From Patescibacteria group bacterium (GTDB lineage Bacteria; Patescibacteriota; Microgenomatia; UBA1406; GWC2-37-13): a stretch of DNA of 46,070 nt. The stretch lies in the NCBI GenBank assembly GCA_023381015.1, contig JAMCTE010000016.1, forward strand, positions 1-46,070, read 5' to 3'. Shown here one piece after another: positions 19,350-34,640 of the stretch. The position numbers and the translations under genes are program-made. How positions within the stretch are numbered: position 1 is the stretch's first letter; the number at the start of each line of letters is the position of its first letter. The notes beneath the pieces are model-generated. The model had not been told where the DNA came from, did not search any database, and was given only the letters and a program-made list of their open reading frames with translations.

Positions 19350-20168
19350 TTATAATAACAAACCACCTAGCAGTATTATCCCAGGTACTATAAAAAAAGG
19401 CAAGGCTGGTTTTCCGGAAACAGGAGGTGCCGGTGTCGCTGTATTTTGGGGAACAGACGTTGGTGTTGCCGAAGGAGGAGGGGTACCTGTAACCGTTGGC
19501 GTCGGCGTCGCTGTCGGACCCGGCGTTCCAGTTGGCGTCGGCGTCGGCGTAGTCGTCGGCGCTTCGGTCGGAGTCAACTGTTCGGTTGGTGTCGGTTGTT
19601 CGGTCGGAGTGAGAATGACTCCTGTTGGCGTTGGGGTTGGTGTTTCCGTTGGTGTAGGACCACCTCCACCACCGCCACCGCCTGAATTGCACTGTTGAGG
19701 ATAATAAGTTTGACAAAGGCTGTTGTTGCTGGAACAAAAGTAAGTCCCATTATTAGCCCCACCGCTTGTTTTACAATCACACAAAGCTAAGCAGTTATTG
19801 CAGTGGTCAAATTGGCCGCTCTCGGTCGTTCCGGCGGGACAACTGCCTGTAGTACCTCCACCGCCGCCCGGATAACCGCACAAGTTACTCGATTCTCCAC
19901 ATGATTGGGAACCGGAAAACCATTTACAGGAAAAACTTTGGCCATCAGATTTTGGAGGCGAACAGGCAGCGTTACAATCTTTGGCTTTATCGTAAGACTT
20001 ACATCCCTGAGCTCCAGCCTGTTGTTGAGTCGTAATTAATGTCTTATTGTAGTAAACCACTCCTATCAAAGCAATCAAAACCACCAGAAATAAATTGCCA
20101 ATCACTAATAGGGAATTAGCTTTTCTTTTTTTTTGAGGAGATTTTAGCGGAGTAAAATTATCAATCAT
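19350..20168 (-). CDS. Cys-rich, Pro/Thr-rich cell-surface protein (paralogue A)
   Basis: Layout of the 272 residues: short basic N-terminus, transmembrane segment (SLLVIGNLFLVVLIALIGVVYY, about 20-41), a Cys-rich outer domain with about 18 cysteines (residues 56-160), a poly-Gly hinge, and a long Pro/Thr stalk of repeated PTPTE/TPTPTGT units (about 172-245). It ends with a hydrophobic segment (PALPFFIVPGIILLGGLLL) after PPVSGK. The end looks like a degenerate sortase-type signal without a basic tail. It shares N-terminal (TPLKSPQKK/TPVTIPNKN) and C-terminal features with the next gene, so the two are paralogues. The stalk is probably O-glycosylated (inference). Repeat length is likely variable. 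Confidence 0.7.
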   Translation of the reverse strand: MIDNFTPLKSPQKKRKANSLLVIGNLFLVVLIALIGVVYYNKTLITTQQQAGAQGCKSYDKAKDCNAACSPPKSDGQSFSCKWFSGSQSCGESSNLCGYPGGGGGTTGSCPAGTTESGQFDHCNNCLALCDCKTSGGANNGTYFCSSNNSLCQTYYPQQCNSGGGGGGGGPTPTETPTPTPTGVILTPTEQPTPTEQLTPTEAPTTTPTPTPTGTPGPTATPTPTVTGTPPPSATPTSVPQNTATPAPPVSGKPALPFFIVPGIILLGGLLL

Positions 20169-20235
20169 ATTAAATAATATTCATTTATAAGAATAACATA
20201 TTTATACGCTTTTTTATTTTTGTAAATAAAATTAA

Positions 20236-20970
20236 TTATAATAGAAGCCCTAATGAAATTACTGCCGTAGGAACAATAAAAGCCAACCAGGGCACTCTAC
20301 CCGTTACTGGCAGTGTCGGCGCCGTAGTTATGGTTGTTTTTGCCAAGATTATTTCCGTCGGCGTCGCTGAAGGCCCAGGAGTCCCCGTTGCCGTCGGACC
20401 AGGCGTGTTGGTCGGTTGACCAGGAGGGGTAGTTGGTGTTATTGTGGGAGTTAATGTCGGGGCAATTGTTCCGGTTGGTGTTGGCGTATTGGTGACGATT
20501 GTCGTCGGCGTCGGAGTTGGGGTACTGGCTGGTTGAGTTGGGGTTGGCGTACTCGCCGGAGCAGTTGGCGTCGGTATTGGCGTATCAGTTGGGCTAGTGA
20601 TATTAGAGGCAATCGTCTTTGTTTTACTTTTTGTCGCAGTACAATTGGCGCTTCCTAAAGATCCATTAGCACACGTTGTCCAATGCATATAATTGACTCC
20701 GCCGACCCCTCCATAAACGCACGTTTGGCTTCCGGCGGTTGCCCCTGCCTGACTACATGAAGAACCTGCTTTATGGGGAGCGATATAACCATTTTGGAAA
20801 GCTGGCTTGCTGGCTCTTGGTACCGAGGAAATCAAATTACTTTGCAAATAATATCCAACATAAGAAACAGTTATTAAAAGGAAAAAAATTCCCGTCAATA
20901 AAAATATGTTTTTAAGTTTAGTTTTATTATCATTTTTATTCGGGATTGTAACGGGAGTGAAATAATCCAT
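20236..20970 (-). CDS. Pro/Thr-rich cell-surface protein with LPVTG motif (paralogue B)
   Basis: It has the same plan as its neighbour. MDYFTPVTIPNKNDNKTKLK is followed by a transmembrane segment (IFLLTGIFFLLITVSYVGYYL), a small domain with four Cys (CSQAGATAGSQTC, CANGSLGSANC), a Pro/Thr stalk (about residues 128-205) and the end TLPVTGRVPWLAFIVPTAVI. The LPVTG just before a final hydrophobic stretch matches the sortase motif LPxTG, although the usual basic tail after the helix is missing (it ends SLGLLL). It could be wall-anchored, or anchored by both ends. No sortase gene is in the window. Confidence 0.7.
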   Translation of the reverse strand: MDYFTPVTIPNKNDNKTKLKNIFLLTGIFFLLITVSYVGYYLQSNLISSVPRASKPAFQNGYIAPHKAGSSCSQAGATAGSQTCVYGGVGGVNYMHWTTCANGSLGSANCTATKSKTKTIASNITSPTDTPIPTPTAPASTPTPTQPASTPTPTPTTIVTNTPTPTGTIAPTLTPTITPTTPPGQPTNTPGPTATGTPGPSATPTEIILAKTTITTAPTLPVTGRVPWLAFIVPTAVISLGLLL

Positions 20971-24048: not shown

Positions 24049-24591
24049 TTAAATTTGCTTTTCGCGCTTTTTAGTAGTCACCCTCCCCCCCTGCCATTGT
24101 CCTTTATACTGCGTTCCCCCGCCTTTAACTTCAAAAAATTGCGCGTGAGCAAACCGGCAACCCAACTCCATTACAATAGGAATATTTCCCGCATTATGTG
24201 CGGCAAATGTGACTTTACCATGATATCCTGGAGCGACGTTTCCAGTCCTGATGATTAACCCTGAACGAAAGGTTGTTGTCCTGGGTTTAAAGTTCACCGT
24301 CAAATTTAGAGGGATGTTGAAGGTTTCGATCGAAGACATGAGAACAAACTCTCCTGGCTTGATCCGATACGAAGTCAATCTTTTAGCATCATATTTTGCA
24401 ACCGTCTTGATGTTTGGAGTCTCGCGGTGTGTCACTCCAAGAAATGCTTTTCCGCCGTCAAGCTTATGAACCTCGCCCAGCCTGATATCAAACCCTGCTC
24501 CTTCCGGAGTCGTCAACTCGCGCTGATCGAGATTATCAACTAATTTTATAGTCTTGACTAGCTTTAAAAGCTCCTTTGGTCCCAGGATCAT
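24049..24591 (-). CDS. dCTP deaminase / dUTPase family protein, catalytic Glu missing
   Basis: The fold is recognisable from FDIRLGEVHKL, KPGEFVLMSSIETFNIPLNL, FKPRTTTFRSGLIIRTGNVAPGYHGKVTF (in two parts) and ELGCRFAHAQFFEV. In dCTP deaminase the strand after GxxG carries the general-base Glu (LE in GHITLEFYN of E. coli Dcd). Here the same place reads GKVTFAAHN, so Ala replaces Glu. The substrate-loop Arg appears kept (TTTFRSG). It may be a dUTPase-like or a regulatory relative rather than a true deaminase. The position beside thyA and folC still points to dUMP supply. The start has TAGAAT 8 bases upstream. Confidence 0.75.
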   Translation of the reverse strand: MILGPKELLKLVKTIKLVDNLDQRELTTPEGAGFDIRLGEVHKLDGGKAFLGVTHRETPNIKTVAKYDAKRLTSYRIKPGEFVLMSSIETFNIPLNLTVNFKPRTTTFRSGLIIRTGNVAPGYHGKVTFAAHNAGNIPIVMELGCRFAHAQFFEVKGGGTQYKGQWQGGRVTTKKREKQI

Positions 24592-24644: not shown

Positions 24645-26576
24645 TTATGCTTTAATATACTGACCGAACTTGACTGGAACAACTTCGACTGTTAATTCGG
24701 TTTCATTACCTAGACCAAAGTAATGATCGGCCTTAAGTGAGATATTGTCTAAAAAGTTATAGATAGAAAATTTTATCATTGTAAATAGATTGACGTTTCT
24801 TTTATAAATCAGCCTCTTATTAATAGCGTGGACTAGCCAATGTTCTGCGCCGATGTCAAGATTTATCTGGTGATGTGCTGCTAAATTTTCTAATATTTTT
24901 TCGACATCTGGTTCTTCCATAAAGCCGAAATTGACTTTGATGGAAAAAATGCTTCCTCTCATGTCGTCTTCAAAAAATTTGATGATATTATATCTTTCTT
25001 CATGAAGATGAGGATTTTCATGGTCAATATGGATATTCAAGATCACAACGTCTTTAGGCAACTCTTTGTAGCGATCATAAAAAATCTGTAAGATAACTGG
25101 AATTCTGTCATTAACTCCCTTGATAAAACGGGTACTCAAAAATATGCTCGATCTGGCAATCGTATTGATTTCCGTCATTGTGGTCTTAAGTTTTATTAAA
25201 TTATAGACTGTCATGCCTTTTTTAACCATTGACTGCTGAATCTTTTCTTTTACCTGGGTGCCCCAGTTCCAAATGAGCATGATTACGAGGATGATGATGG
25301 CAATCGATAATGGTATATACCCTCCCTGAAAAATCTTTAAACTGTTAGCCGATAAGAACAATGCTTCCAATAATCCCAAAGACCCAAAGAGAACAATGGA
25401 TTTGATCTTGTTCCACTTCCAGTAAAGTCTTGATATAAAATACATGCCCACGGTTGTCATGAGCATTACACCAGAAACGGCTAGACCATATGCCCCTGCC
25501 AAACTGGCACTAGTTTTAAATACCAAGACCAGTATAACCGTACCAATATATAGTAGCCAATTAACAATTGATAAATAAATTTGACCATGATGGTCTTTAT
25601 TAGTATGACTTACTCTCATGAAAGGGAAAAGATCAAAAGCCATGGCTTGAGTCGTTAATGAATAGGCTCCGGAAATGAGTGCTTGAGACGCAATGATTGT
25701 TGCTGCTGTTGCCACGATCACCATCGGAATTAAAAATGGCCCTGGAACGAGGCTATAAAAAATGTTACCAAAAATTACTTTGTTTCCCGACAAAAGATAA
25801 GCCCCTTGACCTAAATAGTTTAACATCAAAGCCGGATAAACCAAAGCAAACCAAGAAAATCTGATAGGACGTTTGCCAAAATGACCCAAATCGGCATACA
25901 TCGCCTCACCCCCGGTGACGGCGAGCATGACACTTCCCAAAACCAAAAAATCGGTCAAAACGGTATGACTTTGTAGAAATGCCACGGCAAAATAAGGATT
26001 GGCAGCTACCAAAACGGCCGGATGTTTTACTATTTGTAAAGCCCCAAATCCGGCAATAGACATAAACCAGACAATGATCACCGGTCCAAACACGCTACCA
26101 ATCTTGCTTGTCCCACGGCTTTGGACAGCAAACAAACCAGTCAATATTAATATTGTGATCGGAATAATGTAAGGTTGAAAAGCTGCTGTTGCAACTCTAA
26201 GTCCTTCAACCGCAGATATGACACTGATTGCCGGAGTGATGATACCGTCCCCGTATAAAAGTCCTGCTGCAAAAATAAGTAAAGTGATGATGAGTATTCG
26301 GGCTGCAAATTTTTTTTTGGCTAAGAGTCCATACAGGGCGAAAACTCCGCCTTCACCATCGTTATCAGCCCGAAGAACGAAGATAATGTATTTAAAAGAA
26401 ATTATAATCGTCAGTGACCACAACACCAAACTGATACCGCCTAGTATGTTTAAGCTGCTTCTAACTAGATTAGCATGGCCAAAAAATATTTCATTAATCG
26501 TATATAAAGGAGAGGTCCCTATATCACCGTAAACGACTCCCAAAGCACCTAACGCCATTTGCCATAGATTTCCCAT
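24645..26576 (-). CDS. kup: KUP-family potassium uptake protein
   Basis: A K+/H+ symporter with about 12 transmembrane segments in residues 1-440. The N-terminus MGNLWQMALGALGVVYGDIGTSPLYTINE (in part) carries the family hallmark GVVYGDIGTSPLY, and LSLVLWSLTIIISFKYIIF, DNDGEGGVFALY, YGDGIITPAISVISAVEGL and GGEAMYADLGHFG are all Kup motifs. A soluble C-terminal domain of about 200 residues follows. The length of 643 is typical. It is the last gene before the carbonic-anhydrase-like cluster on the same strand, with a 52-base gap. Confidence 0.95.
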   Translation of the reverse strand: MGNLWQMALGALGVVYGDIGTSPLYTINEIFFGHANLVRSSLNILGGISLVLWSLTIIISFKYIIFVLRADNDGEGGVFALYGLLAKKKFAARILIITLLIFAAGLLYGDGIITPAISVISAVEGLRVATAAFQPYIIPITILILTGLFAVQSRGTSKIGSVFGPVIIVWFMSIAGFGALQIVKHPAVLVAANPYFAVAFLQSHTVLTDFLVLGSVMLAVTGGEAMYADLGHFGKRPIRFSWFALVYPALMLNYLGQGAYLLSGNKVIFGNIFYSLVPGPFLIPMVIVATAATIIASQALISGAYSLTTQAMAFDLFPFMRVSHTNKDHHGQIYLSIVNWLLYIGTVILVLVFKTSASLAGAYGLAVSGVMLMTTVGMYFISRLYWKWNKIKSIVLFGSLGLLEALFLSANSLKIFQGGYIPLSIAIIILVIMLIWNWGTQVKEKIQQSMVKKGMTVYNLIKLKTTMTEINTIARSSIFLSTRFIKGVNDRIPVILQIFYDRYKELPKDVVILNIHIDHENPHLHEERYNIIKFFEDDMRGSIFSIKVNFGFMEEPDVEKILENLAAHHQINLDIGAEHWLVHAINKRLIYKRNVNLFTMIKFSIYNFLDNISLKADHYFGLGNETELTVEVVPVKFGQYIKA

Positions 26577-26628: not shown

Positions 26629-27414
26629 TTAAACATTTCCTTGTTCTTTGATCTGAAAGCTGCCATTATCGGCAAAAACTATGCCATAAATCGGAAGGCC
26701 TTTGGCTAATCTTTTTGCTGTTTCCATCAAGTGTTGTTCGCTGATATCGGATAAAGCCTCATATAGATATTCTTCGTCTTCTCCGTGACTGAATCCAATC
26801 GCCTTGCTTTTGATTAATTCTTTAGCCAAAATGCGGTGCTTTTCGTTGGTAAAAGTCTGTTGGTAGACAAAAGCTTCTGCGAATCTTTGACCCATTTCCG
26901 TATCTAAATTGCCTTGATTAAAAACGCCCCAGTTGCCATTCACCAACAAAACCGCCCCTTCTAAATGATCGCCCTCAAGCACAATTTCTTGTCCACCTTG
27001 TTTCTTGATCTTGGCGAGTTCTTTTTTCATGAAATCAACGTCTTTTTCCTCAAGGTGGAATGCTTTAGGGTCTAAATTTATCTGTTTGAAATGCCCGCAA
27101 CCGCCGGCGATAGCTTTTTCATCGGCGTGATGGTCGGTATGAAACCTGAACTCTTTGACTCCGCCGACTACTTTTATTAAAGCGCTTAGTGCTTTTTGCG
27201 GATCGACCGAAAATCCGTATGAGTTACCGGCTGCCAAAATCATCGCCAGCTCGCCTAGATCGCCACCCGGAAACGCCTGGGGTGCCAAATCATTGTCGTT
27301 TTTGTAACGTCCGTCAATACAGCGGCTGAAAAACTTTTCTTTCCGATTGACTTCGTATTGATTGTCCGTCACAAACTTTTGCACGTCGGTTAGAGAAAGG
27401 ATGCTTCTGTTCAT
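26629..27414 (-). CDS. Carbonic-anhydrase-like metalloprotein (CxDxR ... H-x9-C)
   Basis: The protein is soluble, 261 residues. The sequence shows C32-I-D34-G-R36, then AFPGGDLGELAMI, and later HTDHHADEKAIAGGCGH with His92, His95, His96 and Cys106. Beta-class carbonic anhydrases use Cys-x-Asp-x-Arg and a later His and Cys to hold zinc. The diatom cadmium enzyme CDCA has Cys-x-Asp-x-Arg and His-x9-Cys, the same spacing as His96-Cys106 here. I infer a related metal site; CO2 hydration is possible but unproven. It has its own -10 box (TATAAT at 27423-27428, 8 bases upstream) but also lies at the end of the run of genes from 29777. Confidence 0.5.
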   Translation of the reverse strand: MNRSILSLTDVQKFVTDNQYEVNRKEKFFSRCIDGRYKNDNDLAPQAFPGGDLGELAMILAAGNSYGFSVDPQKALSALIKVVGGVKEFRFHTDHHADEKAIAGGCGHFKQINLDPKAFHLEEKDVDFMKKELAKIKKQGGQEIVLEGDHLEGAVLLVNGNWGVFNQGNLDTEMGQRFAEAFVYQQTFTNEKHRILAKELIKSKAIGFSHGEDEEYLYEALSDISEQHLMETAKRLAKGLPIYGIVFADNGSFQIKEQGNV

Positions 27415-27422
27415 AGAAAACC

Positions 27423-27428
27423 ATTATA
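27423..27428 (-). promoter_or_regulatory. Internal -10 box for the 261-aa gene
   Basis: TATAAT on the minus strand, 8 bases before the ATG at 27414. It suggests separate, leaderless transcription of this gene within the cluster. Confidence 0.45.
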
Positions 27429-27452
27429 CAAAAAAAACGCTTTATTTTGAAC

Positions 27453-27920
27453 TCATCCTTCCAAATCTTTGCCGTGGCCCAGCTCTTCCATCTCCCCCAG
27501 TCTCCTTCCGGCAAAAAGCATCGACGCGTTTACTAAAGCGAGACCGGTCAAGGCAATCGCTTTGGTCGAGACCGGTAATAAAGAGTTTAGTGTTTCAAAA
27601 ATGGCAATCGGGTTGGCAGCCACTAACATCGATTCTATAATATCTGGCAGATTTGATGGTTCAGATTCGACCCAATGGCCTTCTTCGTCTTTGTTGGATA
27701 CTGGCGCATCATGATCAGGCTTAAGCCCCCTGAATAAATAATCAACAAACCCACTTGCTCCTGAAACAGCCATCTTCGTCAAAAGACCTTTCGTATTCAT
27801 CGGATCGGTTGGAATCGAACTCAATACAAAAGCAACTAGTCCTGATTTCCAAGCTACATTGATCATGTCGCCTCTCAGTTGTCTCATGTGCGCCCCAAAT
27901 CCTGTTTCGCGTCTGGTCAT
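27453..27920 (-). CDS. Hypothetical membrane-associated protein of the CA-like cluster
   Basis: This 155-residue protein is not recognised. The N-terminal half contains a moderately hydrophobic stretch (VAWKSGLVAFVLSSIPT) and an Ala/Gly-rich segment (MAVSGASGFVDYLF). An acidic, probably exposed loop follows (HDAPVSNKDEEGHWVESEP). The C-terminal half holds a likely helix pair (IIESMLVAANPIAIFETL, and KAIALTGLALVNASMLFAG). It starts 3 bases after the upstream gene's stop, so translation is probably coupled. It may be a membrane partner of the carbonic-anhydrase-like proteins; that is inference from position only. Confidence 0.6.
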   Translation of the reverse strand: MTRRETGFGAHMRQLRGDMINVAWKSGLVAFVLSSIPTDPMNTKGLLTKMAVSGASGFVDYLFRGLKPDHDAPVSNKDEEGHWVESEPSNLPDIIESMLVAANPIAIFETLNSLLPVSTKAIALTGLALVNASMLFAGRRLGEMEELGHGKDLEG

Positions 27921-27923
27921 ATT

Positions 27924-28859
27924 TTATTTTTTAATTTTTAACTCACGATCAAGAAACGGTTTTTTCAATAAGGGCGTGGCGTTTTTGATTAAGATATAAT
28001 AGAGCGGGTCCAGTTCTACCCTTCCTTTTTTTATTTCCTGCCTCAATGAAGTCGTATCGATCGGAAAACCAGCCCTGATAAGATCGACGACGGTTTTTTT
28101 TAATTGTTCTGGTTCAGGCAAACTTTCCCTAACTGCCGCAACATTTTCTTGACCTATTCTTTGCCTCATTTCTTCAAGCAAATTTGCCCAACTCTCCCAG
28201 ACAGCCTGGACGCCGTCGTATTTGGTTTTGACATGGATCTGCGTACTCCCATAACCGTCCCAAAACATGCTCTTCCTATTTTTTCCCTCCAATAGAAGTC
28301 GCAGTAAGTAGGTTTCCGTCAATGCATCTGGCTTTGAAAAATATGGGGTTTTTTCCGCTAGAGCTTGCAGTCTCCACAGTTTTATCGGATCGACGCTACC
28401 TTCGACATAACTAATGCCGTATACGGGAATCGTCTTTTCCGGACCCGGTGGGTGGGGCAACTGACCTGTCGAATAATCATAAGTTTCAACTTGATACGAA
28501 GAATCCGAAACTATTCCCGTATCGGATGAGAAAACTTTTAATCCGTAAAAAGACTGGTTAAGCTGGTTGGGATGCCGTACTCCGTCATCAAGATCCCAAT
28601 ATTCTATTAACGGTGAATCATCCGAATCATAGTATTCTCCGGGAGCAAAAACATGGAATCTTTGGTGTATGGCCTCGCTTTTCAAATCCATATCGACCTG
28701 TTTCGGTTGATTTTTGGCTTCATCGGCTCGGACCCAGTACAGAAAACCTGGTTTAGTAACGGTTCTGTCAGGAAACACCGCTAACCTTTTTTTGAACTCG
28801 CTTTTCGAGTTTATTTCCTCCAGATGTCTTTGTCCTAAGGCTTCAAGTTGATTAGTCAT
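27924..28859 (-). CDS. Hypothetical soluble protein of the CA-like cluster
   Basis: This 311-residue protein is not recognised. It has no membrane segment or signal peptide. Its first half is rich in aromatic and acidic residues (PGFLYWVRADEAKN, FHVFAPGEYYDSDDSPLIEY, WDLDDGVRHP). The second half is helical (LWRLQALAEKTPYF, ALTETYLLRLLLEGKN, VWESWANLLEEMRQRIG). It lies between the 24-residue membrane peptide and the 155-residue protein with minimal gaps, so it belongs to the same transcript. No enzymatic motif can be named. Confidence 0.6.
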   Translation of the reverse strand: MTNQLEALGQRHLEEINSKSEFKKRLAVFPDRTVTKPGFLYWVRADEAKNQPKQVDMDLKSEAIHQRFHVFAPGEYYDSDDSPLIEYWDLDDGVRHPNQLNQSFYGLKVFSSDTGIVSDSSYQVETYDYSTGQLPHPPGPEKTIPVYGISYVEGSVDPIKLWRLQALAEKTPYFSKPDALTETYLLRLLLEGKNRKSMFWDGYGSTQIHVKTKYDGVQAVWESWANLLEEMRQRIGQENVAAVRESLPEPEQLKKTVVDLIRAGFPIDTTSLRQEIKKGRVELDPLYYILIKNATPLLKKPFLDRELKIKK

Positions 28860-28878
28860 ATTTTTTATAAACTTGTAA

Positions 28879-28953
28879 TTAATTCCAAAATGTCCAAACT
28901 ATCAAAACCGTCAAACCCACAAAAAACAAAAAAACCCCAAAAGCGTCTACCAT
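28879..28953 (-). CDS. 24-residue single-helix membrane peptide
   Basis: The ORF MVDAFGVFLFFVGLTVLIVW-TFWN lies in the 96-base gap, with its ATG 2 bases after the TGA of the upstream gene and its stop 19 bases before the next gene. Nearly every residue after Asp3 is hydrophobic or aromatic, ending TFWN, so it is a single transmembrane helix. The tight spacing suggests coupled translation. It would be missed by usual length cut-offs. It may be a small membrane subunit or regulator of the neighbouring proteins. The T-rich run in the coding strand could also be explained as chance, so confidence is moderate. Confidence 0.5.
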   Translation of the reverse strand: MVDAFGVFLFFVGLTVLIVWTFWN

Positions 28954-28955
28954 AT

Positions 28956-29777
28956 TCAATGTCCTTTACTCATTTCAGAATGTTTAAGCACTGCTGACAA
29001 ACTGACTCTGCCACCAGATAACAAACCGATTAAGGGACTTAAAACGCCGTTCACATAAATGTACCCGGCGACTTCGTTTGGTAAAGCGTTAAGATCGGCT
29101 AATGTAAGCTTGTGGGCCTTGAACTTCAACAAGTAGGTCAATGGGCTGGTAAATCCCTCTGCCCCACAACCATCCCAATGATCCATCATCTCTATTTTTA
29201 TCCTTCGGCTTTTATATTCCGGATTTGACGCTATTTTTATAACTTCTCCCAGTAGATTAGCGTGGGAATAAATCTCAGTCAAAATATTTCCTCCTAAGAA
29301 ATACCCTGTGGCAAAATCACCCAAAATATTGTTAGGTAAAAATCCCTGTACGAGCATCGCCTTAGCTAATCCGACGAATTCCGATCCCATCGGGCCGAAT
29401 GAGCCGGCGACTGCTCCGCCGCTCTTATTGATTCTTCTTTTGTCAACACATGGTACTTGGAAAGTCAACGTCCCGTCAGCATCTTCTCTCATCGGTTGAT
29501 AATCTCCTCCTTCTGTTTTCCCTTGTAAATTCTTTAGTGTTGAACCGATCAAAACCGCGTTTTTTAAGATTCCCGTCGCCAATCCAGTTACAAAAGATCC
29601 GCCGTGTTTTGAAGCTTCTAAGACACTGCCAAAAGTTGCTTTTATGTAATCGGTTGATCCTAGATAATTAAGACCTAAAACCGCTGCTGTCGGCAAAGCA
29701 GCTGCTTTGCTAAAATTCCAAACATTTTCGCCAAAAGTCTTTAACCTATTAACTTCTATTTGTCTCGTCATAGTCAT
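28956..29777 (-). CDS. Membrane-anchored carbonic-anhydrase-like protein (CxDxR ... DH-x3-GC)
   Basis: This 273-residue protein has N-terminal hydrophobic segments (about 22-40, AALPTAAVLGLNYL; about 60-80, GSFVTGLATGILKNAVLIGS). A domain follows with C110-V-D112-K-R114, a Gly-rich stretch (SGGAVAGSFGPMGSEFVGLA) and MMDHWDGCGAEGF with His200 and Cys204. It thus shares the Cys-x-Asp-x-Arg ... Asp-His ... Gly-Cys-Gly order with the 261-residue protein. First gene of the cluster, divergent from the regulator at 29907. The start could be the ATG at 29777 or the one at 29771 (MTRQIEV). The operon promoter with TGTCA repeats lies just upstream. Confidence 0.5.
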   Translation of the reverse strand: MTMTRQIEVNRLKTFGENVWNFSKAAALPTAAVLGLNYLGSTDYIKATFGSVLEASKHGGSFVTGLATGILKNAVLIGSTLKNLQGKTEGGDYQPMREDADGTLTFQVPCVDKRRINKSGGAVAGSFGPMGSEFVGLAKAMLVQGFLPNNILGDFATGYFLGGNILTEIYSHANLLGEVIKIASNPEYKSRRIKIEMMDHWDGCGAEGFTSPLTYLLKFKAHKLTLADLNALPNEVAGYIYVNGVLSPLIGLLSGGRVSLSAVLKHSEMSKGH

Positions 29778-29906: not shown

Positions 29907-31106
29907 ATGAAAAAGACCGTCAATTCACTGACGCAGGAGACCTTGGAAAATGACGCCCATCGTTGGCTCAACATCATCCGCTATCATGAATCAGGAACGA
30001 TAATTCAGATCCAAAACGACGCGGTTTATCGCGTCCATCAGCTTCTGGGAGACAAGAAACTCCTCAAAAAAATCCTGGGAAAATATTATAGGAAGTATTT
30101 GCTAGGCTATATTTCTTTGAGTGAAGATAATTTAATAGACGCAATAAATAAAAAAATCCAAAAATGGAGCCAAGGCAAAGATCTGGAAGATTCCTTAAAA
30201 AAAATAGAATCTAAAGGACTCGATGTCGGTTTATTCGTCGACTACGCCACCAACATCATTACCAATAAATCGGAACAGAAACAGTTGTTTGAACTGGAAA
30301 CGATCCTGAGAAAGTTCAAAAACTTTTCCGTCATCATCTTTTCCGAAGTTGATATTACTGAGGCTGGCTTCAATCAATTAGTCAACCAATGCTCATCACT
30401 TTTCACTCACATTATTAAATATCCTCTTTATAGCGAAAAAGACTCGCTTCAATTCACCAGTTACAACGAAAGCCTCTGGAAATTCAAGTTTCCGGAAAAA
30501 ACCAAACAAGCCGTCGTTAAAAGCTGCGGCGGCTATCTGTGGCTGATCAGGCAGGCTTTGAGACTGTTGAGAGACGAAAAAGACCTGACTCTTGAACAAG
30601 TCTTTAGCCACGAACTGATGCTCAGGAAGTTGGATGTCGTCTGGAGCAAGCTGACCGAACCGGAAAAAGATGTTTTGAGGAAAATTAACAACAAATATCT
30701 TGACGAAGACAGCAAAAATTCCCAAACATACTCTTATCTGAAAACAATTAAAATGATCGTCAACGATTCCTTAGGAATCCCAATCTTGAAATACGTAATC
30801 GAAAAGGAGAAAAGAACCAACCAGTTGATCGTCAAGGACGGCGACGTATTCTTGGATAAAGAAAACGTCTCTTATCAGTTGACGAAAAGCGAGACAAGGA
30901 TAATCAAAGTCTTGATCGACAACAAAACCAAGCTCGTCACCAGAAACCAGATTGCCCAAAAAATCTGGGGCGTCAACTGGGAAGACCATTATTCCGACTG
31001 GGCGATCGATCGACTAATTCACCGTTTACGACTGAAACTCAAAAAAATCGGCTTCGACGAAAGTCTGATAAAAACCTACAAATCAAGGGGGATCATGCTT
31101 GGTTGA
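29907..31106 (+). CDS. Transcriptional regulator with C-terminal PhoB/OmpR-type winged helix
   Basis: Residues about 325-399 match a Trans_reg_C winged helix: LTKSETRIIKVLIDNKTKLV, TRNQIAQKIWG, then DWAIDRLIHRLRLKLKKIGF and IKTYKSRGIML. The N-terminal 300 residues are helical with no receiver domain. The segment LDVGLFVDYATNIITN and FKNFSVIIFSEVD resembles the core of a STAND/AAA-like fold, but I see no Walker A, so ATP binding is uncertain. It is divergent from the carbonic-anhydrase-like operon, and the shared intergenic region carries 11-bp TGTCA repeats. It therefore probably controls that operon and itself. Its 3' end overlaps the convergent 829-residue gene by 14 bases. Confidence 0.75.
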   Translation: MKKTVNSLTQETLENDAHRWLNIIRYHESGTIIQIQNDAVYRVHQLLGDKKLLKKILGKYYRKYLLGYISLSEDNLIDAINKKIQKWSQGKDLEDSLKKIESKGLDVGLFVDYATNIITNKSEQKQLFELETILRKFKNFSVIIFSEVDITEAGFNQLVNQCSSLFTHIIKYPLYSEKDSLQFTSYNESLWKFKFPEKTKQAVVKSCGGYLWLIRQALRLLRDEKDLTLEQVFSHELMLRKLDVVWSKLTEPEKDVLRKINNKYLDEDSKNSQTYSYLKTIKMIVNDSLGIPILKYVIEKEKRTNQLIVKDGDVFLDKENVSYQLTKSETRIIKVLIDNKTKLVTRNQIAQKIWGVNWEDHYSDWAIDRLIHRLRLKLKKIGFDESLIKTYKSRGIMLG

Positions 31107-33582
31107 CAACGGATGCTGCTGGGATTTCCGAAACCGACTGCTGGAAATTCAAGTCGGAATACTGACAGTGTCTGGTCTCGACGATGTAGGCTTCTTGCTT
31201 GTCCAGTAACTCGACGGCAAACCGCTCCTGACCGGTCAGGTCGGCCGCCGTAAAAACCCTGCCCATATCTTCGACATTACCTTCAATGATGAGAACATCT
31301 TCTTCATAACGGGAATTGGGAAGAAAAGTGTTCGCGGTGATGACGACTCCGTTTTTGACAGAAAACCTGTCTCCAAGAAAAGCTTTGACTTCACCCAATG
31401 GCATTTTTTTGTCTTTATTATAACCCTCGTTCAACCCTAAAACGATCCTAAACCGGGTCTCTTTGGTCGGTTTGTCCTCGACCGGCTCGCCTAATTTCAT
31501 TTCCTCGACAATATCTGAAGCTGCCATCCGATAATCTTCGACCGATCCGATGTTATATTTCAAGGTTCTGGGATATCTGGTCATGTGATAAACAAAACTG
31601 GCGCCTCTTTCATAGAACCGGTATCCAAATATCGGCCGACTCAATTTGGTGGATTCTCTTACCAAATGTTGTCTTAAATTCTGTCCATCAATGACATTGA
31701 CGTCCAGATTGGTTCCCCAAGATTTCTCCCGAGGCAGCTCCCTAAATATTGGCATCTTTAAAAGCTCCGAAATCAACTCCAAATCAGTCCTGCCTTCTTT
31801 AAAAAAACCAGGAATCCTGTCGTCTTTCCTGATCAATTCAATTACCCTGGAAAAATTCTGGTCAACCATCCTTTTTAAATTATCGCCTTCTATTTTACCG
31901 GCTTTGCCTTTTTTGATTCCTTCTTTTTTAGCCTGATTCAATATTTTGACAAAAGAAGGGTAACGATAACGGTTTCTAATTTTATCGGCAATACTTACAA
32001 TCGCTTTAAAAATCTCCGGATCTTGTCCTAATACTAAATGTTTTGCAAACCCTGTTTCTTCCAAAAAGCTTATAAACCTAGGAAAATCAGTCAACCATCC
32101 CAATAAAAGACCTGTCTGCATCTCTTCCAGATTTTCCTGTTTTACCGACTCTGGCTTGAATTTTGGAGAAAGATTTCTAAATATATATGAATAATCGCTG
32201 CCGATAAAATCAGTCCGATCAAAATTCTTATCGGCAATATTCAGGGAATTGAGCAAGCCGTCCCTCAACGAACGACCGACCAAAGTGGCAATAAGACTGT
32301 GGTCAAATTCTGTTTTTCCAGTCACCATATCTTCCAAAATATTTCCAAAAGGAATATCGGGCAGGGTCAAGGCTTCTGCAAAAGCCGAATCTAGCTTGGC
32401 AACAAATCCTGTCTCTTTCAGCTTTTTCCAGTCGCTCGGTTCAAGCCATGTTGGTGGAAATTTTTTAATACCGTTGACCAAAAACACCCCTGACGATCTG
32501 AGTTGGCTTAAAAGACTTGCGCCTGGCCCGGTTCGCGAATCCTCGTCAATAGTTGTTTCGTCGGCGGTCGAAGGCATGAATTCCATGGCTGCGACCCTAT
32601 AATTGAAAGTCTTGCCTGTTTTTTCATCAATTATGTCGGTATAGTAGACAATATCCCTATAAGGAATAGCTTCTTTCTGCTTTATGTTTCCTTCTGAATA
32701 AGCACAAATAAGCTGACCGGTCTTTAATTTAAACCCCGCCGGTAAACTAATATCATTATTAGTCAATTTACCGACGACGTATTTTTCTTTTTCATCACCT
32801 TCTAAATTGCCTATGGATTTTATGCCTCTACCTAAAGCTTTTCTTAATATCCCCCTTTGGAAAAACTCCTCAAAAACCTCCTGGTAAACATCAGTCGGAA
32901 ACACGGCAAAATCAAGATCCGGACCCTGATGGATTTTGATTAGTTGTTTTAATAATTTTTCATCCTGTAAATTGTCAATCGGTAAGGCGTCAATTAAATC
33001 TCGGCCAAATGTGCTTGTCTCCACGCCGTTTTGCCTATTCATCATGATCGACCCGACCGAACCTTTGGCCATAAGGAAACGAAGAAAAGTCAAATCCTCC
33101 CACCATCGTTGTAAAAATGATTGCCCTTCAAACGGCGTTCCACTCGTATCGGCTACCTTTTTTATCTGATCATAAACCTGCCGATAGATTGGGTCATCTC
33201 TTTTGACTCCATTACTATCTTTTGGAGCCACCCATTCGTCCAGCCAAATCAAAAGATTCTGGTGGACTTCGGTCAGCTTTTTTCTCAATGGAGAATCCTC
33301 TTTTAAGTTGCCTAACCCAATATTGACAAATGAAGGCAAATCCTGAGAGACGTGGTGCACTAAGGCGATTTTTTCGCTATCGACTCCGAACAATTGACTC
33401 ATATGCCTGGCGCTAAACCGCTCATCAACTTCTACCCCGCCCCATTCTTTTGGTCGCCTTAAAAGATTCAAGGGCGAATAGTTCCGCCTTATTTTAGATT
33501 TTTCTTGCCGGGGAGGTAAATATTCTGGTTCGCCTAAGTGATGCTGCTGTCTGTGAACCAACTCTCTTTTGTCGGTTGCCAT
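31093..33582 (-). CDS. Large hypothetical protein with possible nucleotidyltransferase-like segment
   Basis: This 829-residue soluble protein is not recognised as a whole. A segment at about residues 172-228 reads FLMAKGSVGSIMMNRQ ... QGPDLDFAVFPTDVYQEV. G-S followed by D-x-D in this order is the pattern of nucleotidyltransferase-fold enzymes, but the gap between the two parts is long, so this is weak. The middle third is helical. The C-terminal part (FRIVLGLNEGYNKDKKMPLG, VVITANTFLPNSRYEED, FAVELLDKQEAYIVETRHCQ) looks like a compact alpha/beta domain. It lies next to the regulator, so it may belong to the same system. TAAAAT lies 9 bases before the start, back to back with the promoter of the next gene. 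Confidence 0.55.
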   Translation of the reverse strand: MATDKRELVHRQQHHLGEPEYLPPRQEKSKIRRNYSPLNLLRRPKEWGGVEVDERFSARHMSQLFGVDSEKIALVHHVSQDLPSFVNIGLGNLKEDSPLRKKLTEVHQNLLIWLDEWVAPKDSNGVKRDDPIYRQVYDQIKKVADTSGTPFEGQSFLQRWWEDLTFLRFLMAKGSVGSIMMNRQNGVETSTFGRDLIDALPIDNLQDEKLLKQLIKIHQGPDLDFAVFPTDVYQEVFEEFFQRGILRKALGRGIKSIGNLEGDEKEKYVVGKLTNNDISLPAGFKLKTGQLICAYSEGNIKQKEAIPYRDIVYYTDIIDEKTGKTFNYRVAAMEFMPSTADETTIDEDSRTGPGASLLSQLRSSGVFLVNGIKKFPPTWLEPSDWKKLKETGFVAKLDSAFAEALTLPDIPFGNILEDMVTGKTEFDHSLIATLVGRSLRDGLLNSLNIADKNFDRTDFIGSDYSYIFRNLSPKFKPESVKQENLEEMQTGLLLGWLTDFPRFISFLEETGFAKHLVLGQDPEIFKAIVSIADKIRNRYRYPSFVKILNQAKKEGIKKGKAGKIEGDNLKRMVDQNFSRVIELIRKDDRIPGFFKEGRTDLELISELLKMPIFRELPREKSWGTNLDVNVIDGQNLRQHLVRESTKLSRPIFGYRFYERGASFVYHMTRYPRTLKYNIGSVEDYRMAASDIVEEMKLGEPVEDKPTKETRFRIVLGLNEGYNKDKKMPLGEVKAFLGDRFSVKNGVVITANTFLPNSRYEEDVLIIEGNVEDMGRVFTAADLTGQERFAVELLDKQEAYIVETRHCQYSDLNFQQSVSEIPAASVVNQA

Positions 33583-33620: not shown

Positions 33621-34640
33621 ATGAGTAAAGTCTATGTCTTTGACCCGACCGCATCTGATAAGCTGAGCTTTGTCCGTGGCGTCGGCCGATACCTGCAAAT
33701 CCTCAAAGAAAACTTCCCCGACTGGACGTTTACCGATAAACTCGTTAACCCGTTAACCCATAACTCTCAAACAATCTTGATCAATCCCTTTTTCAACTTT
33801 CTCCAAAAACCAGTGACGATGAGACGAGTTGCCAAAAAACAGATCGCCGTCATCCACGATCTCATTCCCCTTAAATATCCCCGTCACTTTCCGGCCGGGT
33901 TCAGGGGAAATCTCAACATTCTTTTCAATCGATTCGCCCTACAAAACTACGATTTGGTCGTCACCGATTCCGAAACCAGCAAAAAAAATATTATTGATAT
34001 TTTGGGGCTTCCTGAAAGTAAAATTAAAGTTATCTATCCCTGTTTGCCAAAATCCTTTTTGAAAATTGAAAAAGGAAAATTTAATAAAAATGGTAAATTG
34101 AAAATTGAAAATTTTTGTCTTTATGTTGGCGATGCTACCTGGAATAAAAACCTGATAAACCTTGTCAAAGCAATAAAAATCATCAATGTCACCTGTATTT
34201 TCGCCGGAAAGGTTTTTGAAAAACTGTCCGGTGATTTTTCAAATGCCTGGCAGAAAGATTTGAATCTATTCATTAGTGAAACCAAAGACGACAAGCGCTT
34301 TGTTTTTGCCGGATTTGTCTCTGATAATCAACTGATCAAACTTTATCAACAAGCTAGACTAAACGTCATGCCATCAAGGGATGAAGGATTCGGTTTTTCT
34401 TTCCTTGAGGCCGGCAATTTTGGCTGTCCTTCTGTTTCATCGGATACTCCTGTATTTAACGAAGTCTCCCAGGGAAATTCCCTGTTTTTTGACCCGGAAA
34501 ATCCCAATGACATCGCCGACAAAATCGGTGAAATATATTTCAATAAAGAACTAAGGAATTCTTTCGGTCAGAAAGCAAAAAAAAGAAGTGAATTTTTCTC
34601 TGAAAAAAAGTTTCAAAAAGATTTTTTAAATCTTATTTAA
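33621..34640 (+). CDS. Family 4-type glycosyltransferase (GT-B)
   Basis: It transfers a sugar from a nucleotide donor. The N-terminal domain has VAKKQIAVIHDLIPLKYP and NYDLVVTDSETSKKNIID. The C-terminal Rossmann-like domain has YVGDATWNKNLINLVKAI, FAGFVSDNQLIKLYQQARLN, and the donor-binding SRDEGFGFSFLEAGNFGCPS with the E-x7-E arrangement expected for the family (EGFGFSFLEA). The length of 339 is short but complete. Residues about 147-166 (IEKGKFNKNGKLKIENF) are an AT-rich insert of direct-repeat type. It is preceded by a leaderless promoter. The acceptor is unknown; a cell-surface glycan is likely. Confidence 0.85.
   Translation: MSKVYVFDPTASDKLSFVRGVGRYLQILKENFPDWTFTDKLVNPLTHNSQTILINPFFNFLQKPVTMRRVAKKQIAVIHDLIPLKYPRHFPAGFRGNLNILFNRFALQNYDLVVTDSETSKKNIIDILGLPESKIKVIYPCLPKSFLKIEKGKFNKNGKLKIENFCLYVGDATWNKNLINLVKAIKIINVTCIFAGKVFEKLSGDFSNAWQKDLNLFISETKDDKRFVFAGFVSDNQLIKLYQQARLNVMPSRDEGFGFSFLEAGNFGCPSVSSDTPVFNEVSQGNSLFFDPENPNDIADKIGEIYFNKELRNSFGQKAKKRSEFFSEKKFQKDFLNLI
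34061..34120 (+). repeat. AT-rich repeat insert in the glycosyltransferase gene
   Basis: Words like AAAATTGAAAA / GGAAAATTT recur and code KIEKGKFNKNGKLKIENF between two core strands of the GT-B fold. Confidence 0.4.

Follow-up and report, generated by a model that had tools for sequence, protein, structure and literature searches.

Layout of the locus

The stretch analysed here, referred to as the window, comprises 46,070 nt of contig JAMCTE010000016.1 from a Patescibacteria group bacterium. It carries a minus-strand cluster of five open reading frames (ORFs) at 26629-29777, the last of which encodes a 261-residue protein that is a bacterial relative of CDCA, the cadmium carbonic anhydrase of diatoms. 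In order of transcription, the cluster consists of:

28956-29777, minus strand: 273-residue protein with CxDxR and DHxxGCG; likeness to carbonic anhydrases limited to this kind of pattern
28879-28953, minus strand: 24-residue ORF (counted from ATG), a single strongly hydrophobic stretch; coding status unsupported
27924-28859, minus strand: 311-residue protein, no Pfam or NCBIfam family, relatives in 0 of 71 other family genomes
27453-27920, minus strand: 155-residue protein, function unassigned; adjoins the 261-residue gene in two congeners, G025 and G017
26629-27414, minus strand: 261-residue CDCA/zeta-like carbonic anhydrase candidate (Pfam CDCA, hhalign, invariant residues); putative ligands Cys32, His92 and Cys106, putative dyad Asp34/Arg36, invariant His96, and His150 in G-x-H-x-E

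The coordinates and spacing of the five ORFs in a first-pass annotation of this DNA were borne out as open frames, with successive gaps of 2, 19, 3 and 38 bases. The CxDxR ... H ... CG residues that it had reported in the first and last proteins are present in both, which are the only ORFs of the window to match the pattern C.D.R.{20,120}H.{2,13}C. As these residues are conserved in relatives of both proteins, their presence is not a matter of chance.

Relationship of the 261-residue protein to diatom CDCA

Residues 27-157 of the 261-residue protein matched the Pfam family CDCA (PF18484, cadmium carbonic anhydrase repeat) with an E value of 5.1e-5 and 23.4 bits. Elsewhere in the phylum, profile searching recovered clearer CDCA proteins, scoring up to 63 bits against Pfam CDCA (those of the L078 type lie above the cut-off), two of which match the diatom sequence 3BOB directly (phmmer, E 0.0004 and 0.0018). 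A profile built from these clearer proteins and the 3BOB sequence was aligned by hhalign with a profile of the 261-residue protein and its distant relatives from other Patescibacteria families, revealing homology to CDCA at the profile level (97.8%, E 7.6e-13, 200 columns). The motifs of CDCA1 from Thalassiosira weissflogii (PDB 3BOB, 3UK8), namely CxDGR, GG (or GA), HxD, GCG and GxHxE, are all kept in the same order in the 261-residue family, as are the two Cys and one His of the predicted metal site and the dyad residues. The likeness to the diatom cadmium enzyme put forward in the first-pass annotation is thus supported by both Pfam and hhalign.

Across 27 full-length homologues, C32, D34, R36, G50, D52, G54, H96 and C106 are invariant, while H92, D94, G105, H108, H150 and E152 are near-invariant. 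With distant relatives from other families included, C32, D34, R36, G50, G54, H92, H96, C106 and H150 are still invariant. The metal ligands of CDCA, which we take to be Cys263, His315 and Cys325, are consistent with the 3BOB sequence, where the His and the second Cys lie 52 and 62 residues after the first Cys. In the hhalign alignment, His92 of the HTDxH motif stands opposite His315, and Cys32 and Cys106 stand opposite Cys263 and Cys325. The site typical of PF18484, with Cys, His and Cys ligands and Asp/Arg beside the first Cys, is therefore conserved at equivalent places. Gly316 and Gly324 of CDCA (PMC4413181) also fall where expected in the 3BOB numbering.

By homology, Cys32, His92 and Cys106 would hold one zinc (or cadmium) ion and a water molecule, with Asp34 and Arg36 positioning the ligands in the manner of CDCA and the beta enzymes, and the metal hydroxide would attack CO2 to yield bicarbonate. 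The ligand assignment stays provisional, since in the close relative L047 the position of His92 is taken by Asp, with His96 retained. The earlier comparison with CDCA had relied on the His96-x9-Cys106 spacing. This spacing is indeed present, but it is His92 that aligns with His315, and the distance between His and Cys is variable; for these two reasons the His96/Cys106 pair was not preferred as the CDCA equivalent. Among relatives, this distance can be as short as about 9 or as long as about 50 residues, so the likeness in spacing is probably coincidental.

Several features distinguish the 261-residue protein from its diatom counterpart. It has one site, whereas CDCA1 has three repeats; Cys32 and His92 are 60 residues apart with 13 residues between His92 and Cys106, compared with 52 and 9 in CDCA. 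It also differs in its invariant second His, its longer C-terminal half, its bacterial origin and the lack of a recognisable membrane stretch. The beta class (PF00484) shares C-x-D-x-R with His and Cys ligands, yet it gave no Pfam match to the window protein and was above cut-off in none of the 72 genomes of the window's GTDB family, as opposed to 9 of 14 control genomes, in a search that did not extend to the alpha, gamma and iota classes.

Relatives of the 261-residue protein were not found in viral contigs and phage records. L021, the sole match in a scan of genome contigs, was rejected: it is an unrelated sensor gene matched by chance. Two distant CDCA-like proteins (L100 6410-7597 and L101 5505-6548), with weak Pfam matches, carry a twin-arginine-type signal and are possibly exported.

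Gene slot and alternation with Pro_CA_2

Relatives of the 261-residue protein were matched in 44 of the 72 family genomes. Of the 72, 27 keep an intact copy and 15 have truncated or degenerate orthologues. On all 24 contigs holding both genes, the intact orthologue lies no more than two genes from a dCTP deaminase gene on the same strand, directly adjoining it in 12; on the other side, the gene immediately next to it is a divergent glycosyltransferase in 12 of 21. The conserved neighbourhood reads glycosyltransferase, 261-residue gene, dCTP deaminase and thymidylate synthase (thyA), then dihydrofolate reductase, and the genes in between differ between genomes. Its members in the window, with one inserted gene, are:

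24049-24591, minus strand: dCTP deaminase-like gene (dcd; PF22769), conserved downstream partner of the 261-residue gene
24645-26576, minus strand: Kup-type potassium transporter (PF02705), inserted between the 261-residue gene and dcd
33621-34640, plus strand: glycosyltransferase (PF00534), the other boundary of the slot in relatives

Most loci with a truncated orthologue encode a protein of about 120 residues belonging to Pro_CA_2 (PF20393, putative beta-type; 68.8 bits, cut-off 30). This family occurs in 15 of the 72 genomes: none of the 27 with an intact 261-residue gene, 8 of the 15 whose copy is truncated or degenerate and 7 of the 30 others (intact versus rest, 0/27 versus 15/45; Fisher p 5e-4, uncorrected for kinship). 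Within a single genus, the Pro_CA_2 gene of G023, G024 and G029 lies between the glycosyltransferase and dcd, the slot taken by the 261-residue gene in G028. In a tree built from housekeeping genes of the neighbourhood, supported branches require at least five switches between the two labels. Although Pro_CA_2 shares with the 261-residue protein this gene slot in sister genomes as well as CxDxR and HxxC, it is far shorter and no profile similarity between the two families was detectable (hhalign 0.7%).

In at least nine orthologues only the C-terminal half remains and the metal site is missing; most of them lie beside a Pro_CA_2 gene, and several are merely 174-190 residues long with the metal-site half gone entirely:

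L035, 6468-7025
L062, 6013-6570
L063, 3475-4029
L065, 5688-6212
L067, 5236-5766
L068, 5360-5929
L069, 949-1473
L072, 6254-6790
L076, 1640-2176

The 15 genomes with truncated or degenerate orthologues could be read as a sign that the 261-residue protein itself has degenerated into a non-catalytic remnant, retained for the sake of its C-terminal domain. We find this scarcely credible, as the catalytic-type residues are conserved with practically no exception in the window copy and in 26 others, and loss of the site coincides with Pro_CA_2 in 8 of the 15.

Outside the family, both types of gene occur close to the ATP synthase operon, at a distance of a few genes at most: 6 of the 16 CDCA-like loci, from four families of the phylum (L078, L079, L081, L082, L097 and L127), and 7 of the 20 Pro_CA_2 loci sampled (L130, L142, L144, L145, L147, L148 and L149). 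Several carbonic-anhydrase-type genes sit directly after atpC of the F-type ATP synthase operon. This proximity is far above the 2-5% per locus that we roughly estimate for chance, related genomes not being independent draws. Since two genomic positions accept either family, the CDCA-like and Pro_CA_2 proteins are suggested to share a reaction.

Homology, conserved residues, conserved place and alternation with Pro_CA_2 together argue that the 261-residue protein is probably a soluble carbonic anhydrase with one site, belonging to the CDCA (zeta) superfamily, a housekeeping enzyme of the family that has been displaced by Pro_CA_2 in sister genomes. Its metal binding, catalysis and physiological role are what we infer from sequence: the protein would serve CO2/bicarbonate exchange for a small cell that lives by fermentation, and the beta-type mini carbonic anhydrase would take over in sister genomes, sometimes in the same gene slot, the remaining four genes of the cluster being local neighbours. 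That the corresponding place in sister bacteria is taken by a carbonic-anhydrase-like gene unrelated to it suggests that the host relies on the 261-residue protein for CO2/bicarbonate interconversion.

Several observations weigh against this reading. The 23.4 bits of the 261-residue protein fall short of the curated PF18484 cut-off (29.2 bits), and just 5 of its 27 relatives reach PF18484 at E 0.01. In direct profile searches against solved structures, the profile including distant relatives found 3UK8 at no better than E 0.5, and the 27-sequence alignment gave no match up to E 10. A single-sequence AlphaFold2 model of the protein was unusable (predicted local distance difference test score, pLDDT, of 33) and was discarded. 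About 30 family genomes carry neither enzyme. The C-terminal half, kept alone as described above, must have a role other than metal binding. When the exclusion was corrected for kinship by independent pairs, the test was underpowered and not significant (on average 0 pairs the same way and 3.2 opposite, median p 0.25), pointing in the same direction as the uncorrected one. Finally, genome G390 from outside the family holds CDCA-like and Pro_CA_2-like genes in tandem (L094 6061-7513), and the exclusion is therefore not general outside the family.

Part of this evidence would also fit a protein with the CDCA fold and metal site that acts on another small substrate, or that senses CO2/bicarbonate or a metal. 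Relatives of beta-type carbonic anhydrases act on CS2 or COS. The sequence relation to CDCA is distant, His96 is an extra invariant residue, the C-terminal half is retained alone in at least nine genomes, the conserved neighbours are dcd and thyA and not genes of carbon metabolism, and Pro_CA_2 is itself only a putative carbonic anhydrase. We nevertheless hold such a function to be unlikely, because same-slot alternation and the absence of a canonical beta enzyme found in the family are most simply explained by a shared reaction.

If the carbonic anhydrase assignment is true, it names the likely CO2/bicarbonate enzyme of a Patescibacteria family that yielded no canonical beta enzyme, and opens to experiment the role of that enzyme, whether in pH, in bicarbonate supply or in a link to ATP synthase. 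Opinion can be evenly divided on a broader proposal, in which the zeta-type carbonic anhydrase would not be special to diatoms but an old enzyme of bacteria, common across Patescibacteria and interchangeable with the beta-type mini enzyme at fixed slots (dCTP deaminase; ATP synthase), with separable halves, the catalytic one being lost where the beta-type moved in. To our knowledge, no enzyme other than CDCA is known to use cadmium, and the question of its origin would be affected by a bacterial branch whose site is intact in about 20 genera. Reviews list zeta carbonic anhydrases from diatoms only (PMC7215798, table 1; PMC8425729), and our search of the open literature, of which coverage was partial, turned up no paper describing CDCA homologues from Patescibacteria. 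As a kind, the enzyme is already known; the apparent novelty lies in the bacterial branch, in the exchange with Pro_CA_2 and in the separation of the two halves.

The other genes of the cluster and its surroundings

Between the 261-residue gene and the glycosyltransferase, the window contains the cassette 155-311-24-273 followed by a 399-residue regulator with a C-terminal winged-helix (Trans_reg_C) domain (29907-31106, plus strand) and an 829-residue protein of no known family (31093-33582, minus strand). The composition of this interval varies. G025 shares the regulator, the 829-residue gene and the 155-residue gene with the window, and a 178-residue protein replaces 273-24-311; in other genomes, the regulator alone recurs near the slot. 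The Kup-type transporter also lies beside dcd in G027. The 155-residue gene (44% identity) keeps its order beside the 261-residue gene in G025 and G017, so that this pair stays side by side; the 273-, 24- and 311-residue genes do not. The 311-residue gene is confined to this genome, and the 273-residue gene occurs in 3 of the 72 family genomes. The five ORFs are a variable stretch beside one conserved gene, not a conserved system.

The first-pass annotation had proposed an undescribed five-gene system, possibly a membrane-linked complex. A real lineage-specific membrane complex with carbonic-anhydrase-like ends would agree with the tight spacing of the same-strand genes, with the 155-residue gene accompanying the 261-residue gene in three genomes, and with a second CxDxR/CxD-type ...CG protein at the locus in G025 (178 residues), G002 (334), G044 (286) and G041 (516). 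However, the genes are not kept together, the 334-residue protein of G002 is the only one of these second proteins to be a relative, and a distant one, of the 273-residue protein, and neither the 273- nor the 155-residue protein has a clear transmembrane stretch. Their description as membrane-anchored and membrane-associated is weak: maxima of the Kyte-Doolittle mean over 19 residues are 1.48 and 1.47, none reaching 1.6, compared with 2.46 for the 24-residue ORF, whose translation is unsupported. We consider such a complex very unlikely.

Relatives of the 273-residue protein comprise a paralogue on contig C35 of the same genome (49% identity), a protein of G027 and, more distantly related, one of G002. 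Because C110, D112, R114, H200, C204 and G205 are invariant in these four proteins, a metal site is plausible. The claimed kinship with carbonic anhydrases did not emerge from the profiles: by hhalign, the family profile, built from four sequences only, scored 6.6% with CDCA, 10.6% with the 261-residue family and 0.8% with Pro_CA_2, and it gave chance matches only against solved structures, leaving the CxDxR/HxxxCG pattern as the sole shared feature. None of the 273-, 311-, 155-, 399- and 829-residue proteins was assigned to a defence family by PADLOC.

Other proteins with CxDxR ... H ... CG are encoded in the same region of relatives (L047 4390-5940, L057 2394-4136, L062 7197-8669, L123 3306-4967, L036 14943-16001, L050 951-2228 and L072 3-479). 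Five of these larger or otherwise different proteins were scanned and matched no Pfam family; the proteins of this pattern possibly represent further carbonic-anhydrase-like families.

Elsewhere in the window, two consecutive minus-strand genes (19350-20970) encode proteins of 272 and 244 residues with long Pro/Thr-rich stretches and a hydrophobic C-terminal end, resembling surface proteins, and similar Pro/Thr-rich proteins are found at the same place in some relatives.

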